Shown here: piece by piece, positions 47,157-53,944 of the stretch
Numbering within the stretch: position 1 is the stretch's first letter
How the letters are laid out: every line of letters begins with the position of its first letter
NCBI RefSeq assembly: GCF_037996825.1
Contig: NZ_JBBNAC010000001.1
Coordinates: 2,604,001 to 2,668,000 of the forward strand
Direction of reading: 5' to 3'
Length of the DNA: 64,000 nucleotides
Source of the DNA: Bdellovibrio sp. BCCA
GTDB lineage: Bacteria > Bdellovibrionota > Bdellovibrionia > Bdellovibrionales > Bdellovibrionaceae
Program-made: the position numbers and the translations under genes
The notes under the pieces: model-generated
Told to the model about the DNA's origin: nothing
What the model saw: only the letters and a program-made list of their open reading frames with translations
Databases searched by the model: none

Positions 47157-48025
47157 TACTTTCTCTTCTTAAAAAAGGCCACGAGAGGATTCACGTAGTC
47201 CTCGCTGGACCTAACATCTACACGTTCTACTTGCGACAAGCGCAACAAACGATCACGCTGCTCTTTACGTTTTTGAACAGCTTCTTCATACTGTGCGCGG
47301 AACGTCGGTGAAGACGTGTCGACCGTTAAAATTTCTCCGGTCTCTGCATCTTGCACTTCAATCACTCCCATTTTTGGAAGTGAATATTCCGCAGCATCAT
47401 TCACAACACAGGCCACAACGTCATGCTTTCGTCCCAAAAGGCGCAAGCTTTGATCGAAGCCTTCATCCATAAAATCGCTAAATACAAAAACAGTCGCGCG
47501 TTTTTTCAAAATACCTTGAAGGTACGTGAAGCTTGATGACAACTTCGTGCGATGACTTTTTGGTTTATAGTAGAACAAATCGCGCAAAAGACGATGCACG
47601 TGTCCTCGGCCTTTTTTTGGCGGAACAAAATGCTCGACTTGGTCACTGAATAACAACAAACCAATTTGGTCATTATTCTTCACCGCAGAAAATGCAAGAA
47701 GGGCCGCCATATGAGTCATCACTTCGCCTTTAAAATAAGGACCCGTTCCGAAGTCACTTGATCCGCTCACGTCAATAGCAAGAATCAACGTCAGCTCACG
47801 CTCTTCTTCAAAAGTTTTGATATAAGGTTTTCCCGTGCGCGCTGTGAGAGGCCATGAAATACTGCGCACGTCATCGCCCGGCACGTACTCCCTGAAATCC
47901 GCGAAAGTCATCCCTTGGCCTTTAAAGGCCGTGTGATATTCACCCGCAAAGAGATTGTTCACAAGTTTTCTTGTGTTGATCTCTAAGAGTTTAACTTTCT
48001 TTAAGACCTCAGGAGGTAAACTCAC
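47156..48025 (-). CDS. DUF58 domain protein (Bat operon)
   Basis: This 289-residue cytoplasmic protein starts with GTG at 48025, one base from the moxR stop (TAGTG), preceded by GAGGTG. It has the DUF58 hallmark DFREYVPGDDVRSISWPLTARTGKPY and a degenerate vWA domain with LILAIDVSGSSDFG (D-x-S-x-S). DUF58 proteins are regular partners of MoxR ATPases and are thought to help insert or remodel metal or membrane complexes. The C-terminal VRSSEDYVNPLVAFFKKRK is a basic tail. Confidence 0.93.
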   Translation of the reverse strand: MSLPPEVLKKVKLLEINTRKLVNNLFAGEYHTAFKGQGMTFADFREYVPGDDVRSISWPLTARTGKPYIKTFEEERELTLILAIDVSGSSDFGTGPYFKGEVMTHMAALLAFSAVKNNDQIGLLLFSDQVEHFVPPKKGRGHVHRLLRDLFYYKPKSHRTKLSSSFTYLQGILKKRATVFVFSDFMDEGFDQSLRLLGRKHDVVACVVNDAAEYSLPKMGVIEVQDAETGEILTVDTSSPTFRAQYEEAVQKRKEQRDRLLRLSQVERVDVRSSEDYVNPLVAFFKKRK

Positions 48026-49017
48026 TACGGCACCTCAATTTGGCTCAAGATTTCTTTGATGATGTCATCCGTTTTGATGTTTTCTGCTTCTGCTTCGTAA
48101 GTGAGAATCAAACGATGTCTCATCACGTGATAAGCAATCGCCTTCACGTCTTCGGCTGTCACATAACCACGACCGCGCAAGAACGCATGAGCTTTCGCTG
48201 CACGATACAAGCTGATCGTCGCACGTGGTGAACCACCGACATTGATGAGATTAGCGATACGGCTTAGACCATACTCACCCGGTTTACGAGACGCCATGAT
48301 AAGTTCAACAATGTAGTTTTTAATTTTATTATCAACGTAGATTTGATCCGCACGCTGTGATGCGCGCAAAAGATCTTCTTTTGAAATCACCGCATTCACT
48401 TCTGGTTTGTCATTCGTGCCCATGCGGTTGAGGATCTCTAGCTCCTCGCCTTTTCCTGGGTAAACGACGTTGATCTTAAACATGAAGCGGTCCATCTGTG
48501 CTTCTGGAAGTGGATACGTTCCTTCTTGTTCGAGCGGATTTTGTGTCGCCAAAACTAAGAACGGATTTGAAAGTCGATAAGATTCTTCACCGATAGTGAC
48601 TTGTTTTTCGGCCATCGCCTCAAGAAGTGCCGACTGAACTTTCGCTGGCGCACGGTTGATCTCATCGGCCAAAACGATGTTGGTGAAAATCGGACCTTTG
48701 CGTGGTGCAAACTCCCCTGATTTAGGATTAAAGATCATTGTGCCGATTAAGTCCGTTGGCAAAAGATCGGGAGTGAATTGGATTCTTTGGAAATCAAGAG
48801 AGATGGATTTAGAAACTGTGGCAATCGTCAGAGTCTTCGCCAAGCCCGGAACACCTTCAAGAAGGATGTGTCCGCCGGTGAGAAGCCCCATCATGATGCC
48901 CTCCACCATTTCTTTTTGACCTACGACAACTTTGTTGATTTCGGCCATCATTTTTTCGATGAATTGGCTTTCTTGCTTGATGGCGGCATTAAGGGCCATG
49001 ATATCGACTTCGCTCAC
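48025..49017 (-). CDS. MoxR-family AAA+ ATPase
   Basis: This 330-residue cytoplasmic ATPase starts with GTG at 49017 after AGGAGG. Walker A is LLEGVPGLAKT, Walker B NIVLADEINRAPAKVQSALLE, with the sensor AMAEKQVTIGEE and the Arg-finger region FKINVVYPG and RMGTND-type loop. It heads the operon moxR-DUF58-membrane protein-batA-batB-batC-batD, where the ATPase probably drives assembly or chaperoning of the vWA proteins. It diverges from the M48-like gene. Confidence 0.95.
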   Translation of the reverse strand: MSEVDIMALNAAIKQESQFIEKMMAEINKVVVGQKEMVEGIMMGLLTGGHILLEGVPGLAKTLTIATVSKSISLDFQRIQFTPDLLPTDLIGTMIFNPKSGEFAPRKGPIFTNIVLADEINRAPAKVQSALLEAMAEKQVTIGEESYRLSNPFLVLATQNPLEQEGTYPLPEAQMDRFMFKINVVYPGKGEELEILNRMGTNDKPEVNAVISKEDLLRASQRADQIYVDNKIKNYIVELIMASRKPGEYGLSRIANLINVGGSPRATISLYRAAKAHAFLRGRGYVTAEDVKAIAYHVMRHRLILTYEAEAENIKTDDIIKEILSQIEVP

Positions 49018-49145: not shown

Positions 49146-49958
49146 ATGATCAACAACAATACAAAAGTCTGGATATTTATTCTCACAAGCTCCCTCGCAC
49201 TCTTGATAGCGGGCTATCAATTAGGCGAACGACTGGGGTTGTTGATTGGGTTCTTCTTAGCCCTATTCTTAAACTTCTTCGTTTTCTTTTATGGAGAAAG
49301 CCGCGTTCTTGCAAAACTCGACGCGAAACGAGTGAAGGGCCAAGACGCTTGGGGATTGATCGATAAAGTTCAAAAAATGTCGGCAAAACTTCGTATGCCG
49401 GTGCCAGCGATCTACATCACTCCTCATTCTTCAGCGAATGCCTTTTGCGTTGGTCAATCTTGGAAAAGAAGTTCGTTGGGGTTCACGGTTGGATTGCTAC
49501 AAAAACTAGATGATAAAGAGTTAGAGGCCGTTGTCGCCCATCAACTTTGTCACATTCGTCGTCTTGATACTTTCGCCTTTGGAGTGACAAGCACTATTGC
49601 AAATTCCATTGTGGGATTAGGTCAATTTCTTGATAATTTCCTGCCGTATAATTTGCAATTTTTCATGCCGCTTTTTTCTCCGATTGGTTGGTTTGTCATT
49701 AAGAGTGTCGTCGGTGAAAAATCATTTTTTGAAAATGACTTAATGGCCTCTGAACTTCTCGAAAACCGCCATCAATTGGGCGAAGTTTTATGGCGCATGG
49801 AGGGCTTAGCACAAACTCAGCCTCTGGAAATTCCTCCGTGCACAAGTCACCTTTTCATGGTGAATCCAGAGGGCTTTAATCAGAAAAATTTATTTTTAAA
49901 ATCCCATCCTGCCATCGAAGTGAGACTACAAAAATTAATGGGTTACTATCCCATCTAA
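49146..49958 (+). CDS. HtpX/M48-like membrane protein lacking the catalytic Glu
   Basis: This 270-residue protein has two N-terminal transmembrane helices (about 9-27 and 31-50), then the M48 region: PAIYITPHSSANAFCVGQ, as in HtpX, and the metal site VVAHQLCHIRRLDTF. Normal HtpX has HExxH; here it is His132-Gln133-Leu-Cys-His136, so the catalytic Glu is Gln (codon CAA). The third ligand region FFENDLMASELL is kept, so zinc may still bind. Hydrolysis should be impaired; it may be a pseudoprotease that binds membrane substrates. No SD before the ATG. It is followed by DUF1844 and a Do-like protease. Confidence 0.85.
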   Translation: MINNNTKVWIFILTSSLALLIAGYQLGERLGLLIGFFLALFLNFFVFFYGESRVLAKLDAKRVKGQDAWGLIDKVQKMSAKLRMPVPAIYITPHSSANAFCVGQSWKRSSLGFTVGLLQKLDDKELEAVVAHQLCHIRRLDTFAFGVTSTIANSIVGLGQFLDNFLPYNLQFFMPLFSPIGWFVIKSVVGEKSFFENDLMASELLENRHQLGEVLWRMEGLAQTQPLEIPPCTSHLFMVNPEGFNQKNLFLKSHPAIEVRLQKLMGYYPI

Positions 49959-50014
49959 TTCACAGCCTTGACAGAACGGGTTTAAAACTCAAGTTGATAT
50001 ATGGGAGTTATAAT

Positions 50015-50263
50015 ATGGGTGAAAAACTTGAAGCTTCGTTTTCTGTTTTAATCATGTCGATCGCGTCTTCTGCGGTGATGGCAATGGGCTTAGCCCCGCA
50101 TCCTCAATCCGGCGAAGTGACAAAAGATAAGAATATGGCTCGTTTTAATATCGACCTTTTGCTAGTTCTCCAGGAAAAAACGAAAGGCAATCTTTCGGGT
50201 GACGAAGCCAAATTCTTGGAAAATTTAATCAGTGATCTACAAATGAAGTTCGTATCTGTCTAA
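50015..50263 (+). CDS. DUF1844 protein
   Basis: The ATG at 50015 follows GGGAG. The 82-residue protein is a single DUF1844 domain: FSVLIMSIASSAVMAMGLAPH, then ARFNIDLLLVLQEKTKGNLSGDEAKFLENLISDLQMKFV. The KTKGNLS-x-x-E helix is the family signature. The family is common in delta-type bacteria and Acidobacteria and its function is not known. It lies in the same direction 36 bp before the HtrA-type protease gene. Confidence 0.85.
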   Translation: MGEKLEASFSVLIMSIASSAVMAMGLAPHPQSGEVTKDKNMARFNIDLLLVLQEKTKGNLSGDEAKFLENLISDLQMKFVSV

Positions 50264-50299: not shown

Positions 50300-51736
50300 A
50301 TGAAAAAGCTCTTATTTCTTGCTCTAGCCGTTTCATTGTCAGTTCAACCTACTTACGCGCAACAAACGCAGACTCTGCCGAAAGAAGCTCCGAAGCTCAA
50401 ATTAAGTGAACCGCTTCCAGCAAATCTTTTCGTTGAGCTTGCGAAAGCAATCAACCCTGCTGTTGTGAACATCTCAACGACAGCGCTGCCGAAAAATATG
50501 CCGCGCGGTCGTGATCCCATGCTCGATATGCTAGAGCAGCTTTACGGCTTTCGCATGCCACCGCAACAGCAACAACAACGCCCTCAACAAATCGGTTTGG
50601 GAACGGGCTTTGTTATCCGTGAAGACGGCTTGATTGTGACGAACAATCACGTGATCGCGGGTGCGGATATTATCAACGTTCAGTTGAGTGAAAAATCAAA
50701 AGATGTCTATGAAGCGACTTTGATCGGAAGCGACGAAAGAACAGATATCGCTTTGATTAAAATCACTCCGAAAGAAAAACTTCCTGTCGCAGTTCTTGGT
50801 TCTTCCAAAGATCTCGAAGTTGGTGAATGGGTCGCAGCTTTCGGTAATCCATTTGGTCACGGTCACTCGATGACAAAAGGGATTGTCTCTTCAAAAGGTC
50901 GCGACATCACAGAGATCAATAAAATTCCTTTGATTCAAACAGACGCGAGTATCAACCCCGGTAACTCCGGTGGTCCGCTTGTAAATACCAAAGGACAAGT
51001 TGTCGGTGTGAACTCTGCGATTGATGCTCGTGCACAAGGGATTGGTTTTGCGATTCCTATTGATGAAGTGAAATCCGTGATTTCTATTCTCGAAACAAAA
51101 GGTCGTATTGTTCGCGGTTACATCGGTGCAGCTCTTGGTGATTTAGATCCAGATGCGGCGGAGTACTTGGGACTTGGTGATGTTCGTGGTGCGGTTGTGA
51201 CGAACATGGATCCAAAAGGACCTGCGGCGAAAGCCGGATTTAAAATCTATGACATCGTGACAGAGTTTAACGGCAAAACTATTAATGGCTCTTTGGATCT
51301 GATCGATGCTGTCAGCGATGCTCCGATTGGAAAACCTGCGAAGGCTAAAATTCTTCGTAACGGTAAAGCGATCAACGTGAGTGTGAATGTCGCTGAACGT
51401 GCAGAAGACAAACCTCGTGTGGTGCGTGCGGCTCAAAAAACTTATCAAGGTCAAAAGGCTCCGTTTAATTTAGGTTTCACAGTGATTGATCCGACTCCAG
51501 AGCTTCGTGCGGAGTGGGGTCTTCCTGATGATATGAAACAACCTGTGGTGATTGAAACGGAGCGCGCGTCTCAAGCCAGCAAAAGCGGTCTGCGTGTGGG
51601 AGACGTGGTTTTGGATGTGAACAAAAAGCCTGTGGACAATTCAAAAGACGTGTTGAAAAACCTTAAAAAAGGCCAAAACACACTGCGCATTGCCCGCAAC
51701 ACCCGCATTCAAATCATCAATATTGAAGCTAACTAA
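50300..51736 (+). CDS. Do/DegP-family periplasmic serine protease
   Basis: The ATG at 50300 (GAGAGG, 6 nt) gives a 478-residue precursor with a signal peptide (ending PTYA). Catalytic triad His117 (TNNHVIAG), Asp149 (RTDIAL) and Ser223 (NPGNSGGPLV) are intact. A Gln/Pro-rich loop near 88-98 matches the LA-loop region. Two PDZ domains follow (about 290-360 and 390-470), so it is a DegP/DegQ-type chaperone-protease that degrades misfolded envelope proteins. It ends at a clear intrinsic terminator. Confidence 0.95.
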   Translation: MKKLLFLALAVSLSVQPTYAQQTQTLPKEAPKLKLSEPLPANLFVELAKAINPAVVNISTTALPKNMPRGRDPMLDMLEQLYGFRMPPQQQQQRPQQIGLGTGFVIREDGLIVTNNHVIAGADIINVQLSEKSKDVYEATLIGSDERTDIALIKITPKEKLPVAVLGSSKDLEVGEWVAAFGNPFGHGHSMTKGIVSSKGRDITEINKIPLIQTDASINPGNSGGPLVNTKGQVVGVNSAIDARAQGIGFAIPIDEVKSVISILETKGRIVRGYIGAALGDLDPDAAEYLGLGDVRGAVVTNMDPKGPAAKAGFKIYDIVTEFNGKTINGSLDLIDAVSDAPIGKPAKAKILRNGKAINVSVNVAERAEDKPRVVRAAQKTYQGQKAPFNLGFTVIDPTPELRAEWGLPDDMKQPVVIETERASQASKSGLRVGDVVLDVNKKPVDNSKDVLKNLKKGQNTLRIARNTRIQIINIEAN

Positions 51737-51982: not shown

Positions 51983-52306
51983 ATGAAAGTCACCGAGGTC
52001 AAAGTATTCCCAGTCAACGAGGACCGGCTTAAAGCCTACGTCTCAATCACTCTCGACAATTGCTTCGTCGTGCGCGACTTGAAGGTCATTCAAGGAACGA
52101 GCGGCTTGTTTGTGGCAATGCCCAGCAAGAAACGCAAAGACGGCCAGTTCCGCGATATTGCTCACCCTCTGAACCAAGAGACGCGAACAATGATCGAGGA
52201 CTTAATTTTTGAAGCTTATGAAAAAGAATTAAAATCCATGGGCGAAACTTTAGTAAATCTCAAACGCCAGAAAGCGCCTAACAGCGACTACGGCGAAGAC
52301 TACTAG
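51983..52306 (+). CDS. spoVG: SpoVG-family regulator
   Basis: This 107-residue protein starts with MKVTEVKVFPVNEDRLKAYV and continues DNCFVVRDLKVIQGTSGLFV and AMPSKKRKDGQFRDIAHPL, nearly the consensus SpoVG fold. SpoVG binds DNA or RNA and regulates septation and stress genes in several phyla. The roughly 20-residue C-terminal extension beyond the usual domain is charged. It is monocistronic: a terminator precedes it and a structured region with another terminator follows. Confidence 0.95.
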   Translation: MKVTEVKVFPVNEDRLKAYVSITLDNCFVVRDLKVIQGTSGLFVAMPSKKRKDGQFRDIAHPLNQETRTMIEDLIFEAYEKELKSMGETLVNLKRQKAPNSDYGEDY

Positions 52307-52708: not shown

Positions 52709-53593
52709 CTAAGAACAATACTCTAAAACTCTTAATCTAAAATTCTCAAAATTTCTAAATCCATAAGCTCGTCTTATAATTTCTTCCATCCTGTTGTGTA
52801 GTCCTTCCGTTATTGAATTGGTCTTACTAAAACGCCACATCCTGACGATTTCCTCCTGCCAAGATTCCAGGGTTTCACCAAGTATTTTCATGTATTTAAA
52901 GCCGCATTCTTTGAGCATTTTGATTCCTTCTAATAGATCTGGGATTAGATGGCTTGCTTGATCCTTCGAAGTTACTCTTGCAAGAATCACATTCATAAGA
53001 GTTTGCTTAAAGTCGTAAATCACCTCTAGTGCAGGATTTTGTTTAAGATATTTACGAAGCTTCGCTTCTTGTTCCGGTGAAAGATTTTTTCGATGTCTTC
53101 GCATGAGCGATAGTAGGCCTCGATTCTTTCTTCCTGCTTCATCAAGTTCAGACCACGTCTTTAGGAAGTGATGATTGATGAGTTTTACGACGTGAAATCG
53201 ATCCGCCACGATCATCGCATGACTGAAATGTTTCTTCGCGATACTTCGGTAGGTTTCAGATAAATCCATCACGATCACACGACAATTCTTCTTATCGGGA
53301 AGCCTTCGCAAGTAAGCATTTAAAGACAGTTCCGATCGGCCCAATGTTACATCATAAACCTTATGTCTTTTAAGATCTGCAAGGGTCGTCATGTAGCCTT
53401 TACTTCTGGTAAAATGTTTTTCATCGATCCCTAAAACCTTGGGGCAAGAACCATTTTTCCGGTGGCTATCTTTCATCTTTAAATGGTGTTTATAGCAACG
53501 CTCGACTGTTGCTGGACTAATTCCTAAAAGCTTAGCGGTCATCGCACGAGAAAAGCCCCAGTGATGTTTTAATGCGGCTTCTTCGCGGAACAC
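52709..53593 (-). pseudogene. ISL3 transposase, C-terminal catalytic part
   Basis: The frame of 294 codons has a helix-turn-helix (RAMTAKLLGISPATVERCY) and the DDE catalytic core: Asp in VLGIDEKHFTRSKG, Asp in MIVADRFHVVKL and Glu in TNSITEGLHNRMEEII. The final FRNFENFRLRVLEYC is family-typical. The coding information in the overlap with the N-terminal frame lies in the -1 frame relative to it. Without a frameshift it would lack the zinc finger. It could be a frameshift mutation or a programmed frameshift. Confidence 0.85.
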
Positions 53594-53889
53594 TTCAGTG
53601 CACTGAAAGCGTGGTTTAGTTTAACACCCGGAATGCGTTGATTAAAATACTTTTGGCAAGCTCGACACTGAAATTTAAATGTTTTGATGATCAGGATGCT
53701 TTGATTGGTCCCGATGCTGAGATGTTTCAGGCGTCGTATAAAGGTATCTTTTTTGCGAAGATTATTGCTCGAACAAAATGGGCAGCGATGTTCTCCAACG
53801 AAATCAACGTTGAGCTCAACAGCGCCATGTTCTAAAGATTTATTGATCTTTATATCATTCAGTCCAATGATAGGGTCGTAATGGGGCAT
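53569..53889 (-). pseudogene. ISL3 transposase, N-terminal zinc-finger part
   Basis: The ATG at 53889 follows AAGGA. The protein has the N-terminal ISL3 zinc-finger pattern, HRCPFCSSNNLRKKDTF and FKFQCRACQKYFNQRIPG, which binds the IS ends. It reads through LNHAFSALKCSAKKPH to a stop in the wrong frame. The correct continuation (REEAALKHHWGFS) is in the -1 frame; slippage would have to occur after the in-frame TAA of the -1 frame about 28 bases upstream of the GTG. Confidence 0.85.
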
Positions 53890-53944
53890 TAGGGGTCCTT
53901 TTGTAAAACTTGTTGTGGTAAACAAATCTTAGCAAAAACCCTTA

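Follow-up and report, generated by a model that had tools for sequence, protein, structure and literature searches.

The proteins on which HtpX acts lie in the inner membrane, and it reaches them from the cytosolic side. The rhomboid and FtsH families have well-known pseudoproteases, in which iRhoms, Derlins and FtsHi keep the fold of a membrane protease, have lost catalysis and are encoded by genes kept by selection. The HtpX-like gene of Bdellovibrio sp. BCCA described here appears to resemble them in these respects, although iRhoms, Derlins and FtsHi belong to other protease families and their roles were shown by experiment, whereas ours is read from sequence.

A laboratory mutant of Escherichia coli BepA, another M48 protein, carries exactly the E-to-Q change in HExxH that is found here. 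This mutant, BepA E137Q, has lost proteolysis and is dominant negative (PMC7950410), and it crosslinks to the client LptD and retains a weakened chaperone-like activity (PMC8423444); dead BepA, in other words, still holds its client. BepA differs in being periplasmic, in having a TPR domain and in keeping the third Glu, whereas the Bdellovibrio change is natural, fixed in the genus and accompanied by loss of the third Glu.

The best NCBIfam HtpX model for the Bdellovibrio protein was PRK03001 (134.7 bits, E = 3.4e-39), a score below the HtpX equivalog cut-off of 369. The protein shares with HtpX of this type (MEROPS M48B) its length, hydrophobic segments, M48 domain and the NAFxxG, SHLF-VNP and HPx4R motifs, and its gene is syntenic with intact copies, but it has Gln for the catalytic Glu and Phe for the third Glu. 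With the HtpX fold and without the features that define active HtpX, it is, judged by its residues, best filed as an M48B non-peptidase homologue. A full-text search of open-licence papers returned no published report of a pseudoprotease of the HtpX group, a review of inactive metallopeptidases mentions neither M48 nor HtpX, and our literature search found no relevant paper on HtpX in Bdellovibrio. A naturally cutting-dead HtpX homologue under selection could separate the binding role of HtpX from its cutting role, which matters because HtpX function itself is poorly understood.

Fold and active-site residues

The window, that is, the whole stretch of DNA analysed, comprises 64,000 nucleotides, and positions given below refer to it. 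The gene (49146-49958, forward strand) encodes 270 amino acids with an M48 fold and without the catalytic and third-ligand glutamates. The open reading frame matched the Pfam profile Peptidase_M48 with 53.9 bits (cut-off, 20.3), and this profile also matched 27 of the 28 aligned orthologues. Residues 4 to 48 (49155-49289, forward strand), delimited from the sequence and the secondary structure of the model, form an N-terminal hydrophobic region that is expected to make up two membrane segments, drawn in the predicted structure as one long helix. The AlphaFold2 model, built with 28 orthologues, had a mean pLDDT of 87.1 and a pTM of 0.83 and placed the HQLCH motif in a helix (residues 123 to 140) and residue 194 in another (residues 191 to 205), as in M48 proteins. 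The top Foldseek ranks went to ZMPSTE24, Ste24p, the HtpX domain 3CQB and BepA, none of them with an E value under 0.001; VIA-align superposed the model on Ste24p with a Z score of 12.4 (204 residues, rmsd 6.0), on 3CQB with 10.6 (97 residues, rmsd 3.0) and on BepA with 10.8 (154 residues, rmsd 4.2). The predicted model is of the M48 tertiary fold. The hydrophobic segments, this fold and the Pfam and PRK03001 matches bear out the original prediction of an HtpX/M48-like membrane protein; coding unrelated to HtpX, or a chance HxxxH, is ruled out by the profile matches together with the structural ones.

In the alignment of orthologues, HExxH is replaced by the degenerate HQLCH (residues 132 to 136; 49539-49553, forward strand), with H132 encoded at 49539-49541, Q133 by CAA at 49542-49544 and H136 at 49551-49553, and with C135 inside the motif, exactly as had been predicted. 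The same prediction held that the third-ligand region was kept, and here it failed. The third zinc ligand of HtpX is a Glu four residues before an invariant Asp (REFxAD). Aligned on that Asp, D198 (49737-49739, forward strand), which does not vary in any orthologue with data, intact or degenerate, the ligand position within the local sequence KSFFEND is taken by F194 (49725-49727, forward strand), whereas 14 of 14 intact orthologues have Glu there. The nearby E196 comes two residues later in that helix and corresponds to a position that varies in active HtpX. Since Q133 and F194 stand in their places, both glutamates required for catalysis are gone.

Other elements of the HtpX active site are kept, namely, N98 of NAFxxG (49437-49439, forward strand), which is invariant in active HtpX, and, by alignment, the HPx4R active-site plug (H254, P255 and R260; 49905-49925, forward strand), which reads HPAIEVR at residues 254 to 260 and follows the motif defined in PMC7950410. 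On these residues, the protein is very probably catalytically dead, and we infer that it cannot cut proteins. C135 is not favored as a substitute metal ligand, as Cys also occurs where His has been lost (LGLCQ, YQLCS and QQLCH).

Conservation in the genus and across the order

Among 24 species-level Bdellovibrio genomes including the source genome, the gene was found in all 23 others searched, at 68 to 88% identity, in full length and without stops. Q133 and F194 were present in 24 of 24 genomes, as were N98, H254 and R260; C135 is conserved in the genus, and H132 and H136 were found in 23 of 24, the exception (L032) reading YQLCQ. Not one of the 24 genomes carries HExxH at this locus. Because Gln is common to all of them, chance, a sequencing error and a single inactivating mutation of this strain, the last of which had been considered originally, are excluded. 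Median dN/dS of the gene was 0.035 by the Nei-Gojobori method, for which only 10 pairs were usable (0.15 < dS < 1.5), compared to 0.027 for moxR, 0.083 for DUF1844 and 0.086 for degP, and purifying selection on it is therefore as strong as on its housekeeping neighbors. With its residues lost in the clade, its frame open and its dN/dS low, the gene fits the description of a pseudoprotease maintained by selection in Bdellovibrio.

The fixed left border of the locus is a divergent gene for a MoxR AAA ATPase (48025-49017, reverse strand), beyond which lie DUF58 and two vWA/Bat-like genes. On the other side and in the same orientation as the HtpX-like gene follow a gene for a DUF1844 protein (open reading frame 49994-50263, forward strand; start at 50015 inferred from an ATG after GGGAG) and one for a Do-type serine protease with a signal peptide and two PDZ domains (50300-51736, forward strand; start at 50300 inferred). 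When the locus was scanned for promoters and terminators, the promoter matches were no better than chance. This order, with the divergent moxR-DUF58-bat cluster on one side and DUF1844 and degP on the other, was seen in nearly every genome of the order. The DUF1844 protein is always encoded between the HtpX-like gene and degP; the literature on it is almost nil, with one passing mention found.

A contig search with the single protein as query gave matches in the genus only. The orthologues at the locus were fixed by gene order and by the tree, which rules out confusion with paralogues, and 93 pseudo-type sequences, representing 50 genera in 9 families of the order, were scored at H132, E133, H136 and E194. 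The third Glu was lost in 91 and the catalytic Glu in 76 of the 93. At least two of the four residues were missing in every one of them (two in 34, three in 22 and all four in 37), gaps in a few very divergent sequences being counted as losses. Together with the Gln shared by the whole genus, this pattern of loss supports the pseudoprotease that had been predicted. The Bdellovibrio family has HQxCH and family f4 mostly YQxAS, and other families often retain the Glu while the second His is replaced by Lys or Arg. D198 and R260 were invariant among sequences of the order with data, and R29, G65, D67, D163 and W216 showed higher conservation within the pseudo clade than among intact relatives, which suggests a constraint of a different kind.

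Where the profile search drew a blank at the locus, most genomes have an open frame of 240 to 320 amino acids that contains hydrophobic stretches and matches the family weakly (G127, G041, G057, G039, G125 and genus g3). The frames at L147, L151, L152, L153 and L146 keep the place with only weak family similarity, having drifted to an extreme degree. The gene is cleanly absent from G048, G074, G077 and G128 to G130, in which moxR directly adjoins DUF1844, and it is thus dispensable in some lineages; L159, L160, L163 and L165 to L167, from several separate genera, show this clean absence, with moxR beside DUF1844.

Origin of the degenerate copy and the second HtpX

Intact HExxH and REF/YxAD motifs with N98 and H254 occur at the same locus in three genomes of family f11 of the class and in most genomes of families f15 to f19 and f27 of the phylum. 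In the f15 to f19 and f27 outgroups, moxR was not seen adjoining the gene, and the DUF1844-degP side is conserved. The intact HtpX at this place in sister lineages of class and phylum therefore points to an active protease that turned into a pseudoprotease. In the gene tree, the pseudo-type sequences formed one clade (SH-aLRT, 100) that adjoined the syntenic intact HtpX and stood apart from the PRK05457 type.

One genome, G040, is the only member of the order with a complete catalytic set, HEMAH...SEYEAD (L042:4001-4828, reverse strand); its orthologue has Thr at the place of N98 and Gln at that of the plug His, and it grouped with families f3, f8 and f9 (support, 99), its exact sister not being well supported. 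Horizontal replacement is not favored as the source of this copy, which occupies the usual locus, reaches 361 bits against the family model, falls inside the pseudo clade and shares the T98 and Q254 of that clade. Since its plug His is Gln and BepA H246N is reportedly deregulated, the G040 orthologue may, by analogy, combine protease activity with a modified plug. On the assumption that no lost residue ever returns, several losses of catalysis would have followed the split of the G040 lineage; when regain is permitted, a minimum of 4 changes is needed for E194 and of 6 for E133. One locus thus offers a natural series, from intact copies in the outgroups through G040, with its catalytic set and altered plug, and copies that have lost two, three or four residues to clean loss. 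The order and cause of the decay of a protease into a pseudoprotease, including whether a second HtpX is permissive, are therefore testable at a single place.

A second, intact HtpX, for which a search had been proposed along with the original prediction, is indeed present among the four M48 genes of the source genome. It is of the PRK05457 type (L001; HEIAH...REFRAD; 374 bits against a cut-off of 245), a type found in 131 of 144 genomes of the class and in 102 of the 106 good ones. In f15 to f19, whose syntenic HtpX is intact, comparison with L001 gave at best either that syntenic gene or weak matches. Among the f27 and f14 genomes with the PRK05457 type, the other copy is somewhat decayed in part (its third Glu is Asp in L097, and L098 has RGLCR), while the syntenic copy is intact in L086 and L089; f11 has both types, both intact. 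From this contrast, and with f11 keeping both copies, the second HtpX appears to permit decay of the syntenic copy without forcing it, as far as a correlation can tell.

The near universality of the active PRK05457 type in the class, set against f15 to f19, where that type has no strong match and the syntenic HtpX is intact, also fits a slowly dying relic on which selection was relaxed after the second HtpX took over and which has no function of its own. The clean losses, the strong drift in other genomes and the stepwise, recurrent disappearance of active-site residues along the tree agree with such a course. A relic would nevertheless hardly be expected to keep its frame open in all 24 Bdellovibrio genomes with a dN/dS of about 0.035, nor to hold D198 and R260 without variation along with the family-specific R29, G65, D67 and W216, and we regard this explanation as unlikely.

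Proposed role and remaining alternatives

Overall, we consider it likely that the protease chemistry of a PRK03001-subfamily HtpX was lost in the order and that the protein was kept in Bdellovibrio as a pseudoprotease. This explanation is built on the fold, the position, the losses at Q133 and F194, the conservation throughout the genus and the purifying selection, all established at the sequence level. An ancestral PRK03001-type HtpX would have stood at the old locus, between the divergent moxR and DUF1844-degP, and its chemistry would have been lost within the order of Bdellovibrio. The present product could be, though this step is weaker, a membrane-anchored, non-cutting HtpX-like module at the cytosolic face, the side on which the HtpX domain of the family is expected. 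The retention of the locus and the strong preservation of the gene in Bdellovibrio indicate that it probably has a non-cutting job. The retained cleft and plug might bind membrane-protein clients, in line with the membrane substrates suggested originally, or a partner, the natural partner candidates being the active PRK05457-type HtpX or FtsH. As protease-dead M48 proteins hold substrates, BepA E137Q being crosslinked to its client, we tentatively propose that its specific role is to bind a client or partner at the inner membrane.

H132, H136 and the plug H254 all remain in Bdellovibrio, which makes metal binding possible. That these three residues hold a metal with the plug shut, and that the protein is a natural dominant negative that joins or competes with the PRK05457-type HtpX or FtsH in inner-membrane quality control, is a doubtful elaboration. 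The same residues could also belong to an altered but active metalloprotease, with zinc on H132, H136 and H254 (or E196) and with Gln133 or some other residue to assist the water. The presence of both histidines in all but one of the Bdellovibrio genomes and of H254 in every one, as well as the conserved C135, would suit such an enzyme, and in BepA the plug His of M48 proteins binds zinc (PMC7950410). The E-to-Q change at the equivalent place kills BepA (PMC7950410), however, the third Glu is also gone, and related families lose His ligands too (YQxAS, LxLCQ and others) while the gene stays in place, as it does in the Bdellovibrio genome with YQLCQ; an active enzyme is thus very unlikely.

Regulation of the neighboring Do-type protease by the pseudoprotease, as originally suggested from genes that are close, co-directional and together across the order, is highly improbable, since a signal peptide directs the Do protein to the periplasm, as opposed to the cytosolic location expected for the HtpX domain, and since the htpX-DUF1844-degP order arose before catalysis was lost, existing with intact HtpX in outgroups, so that an adjacency inherited from an active protease says nothing of a regulatory role; DUF1844 and degP, moreover, stay in place where the HtpX-like gene is lost.

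Downstream of degP, the window encodes a SpoVG-family protein (51983-52306), found at the same place in many relatives. Further on lies an ISL3-family transposase (52709-53925, reverse strand), which is split in two overlapping frames, one with the DDE domain (52709-53593) and one with the zinc ribbon (53569-53925), and is therefore probably frameshifted or programmed.
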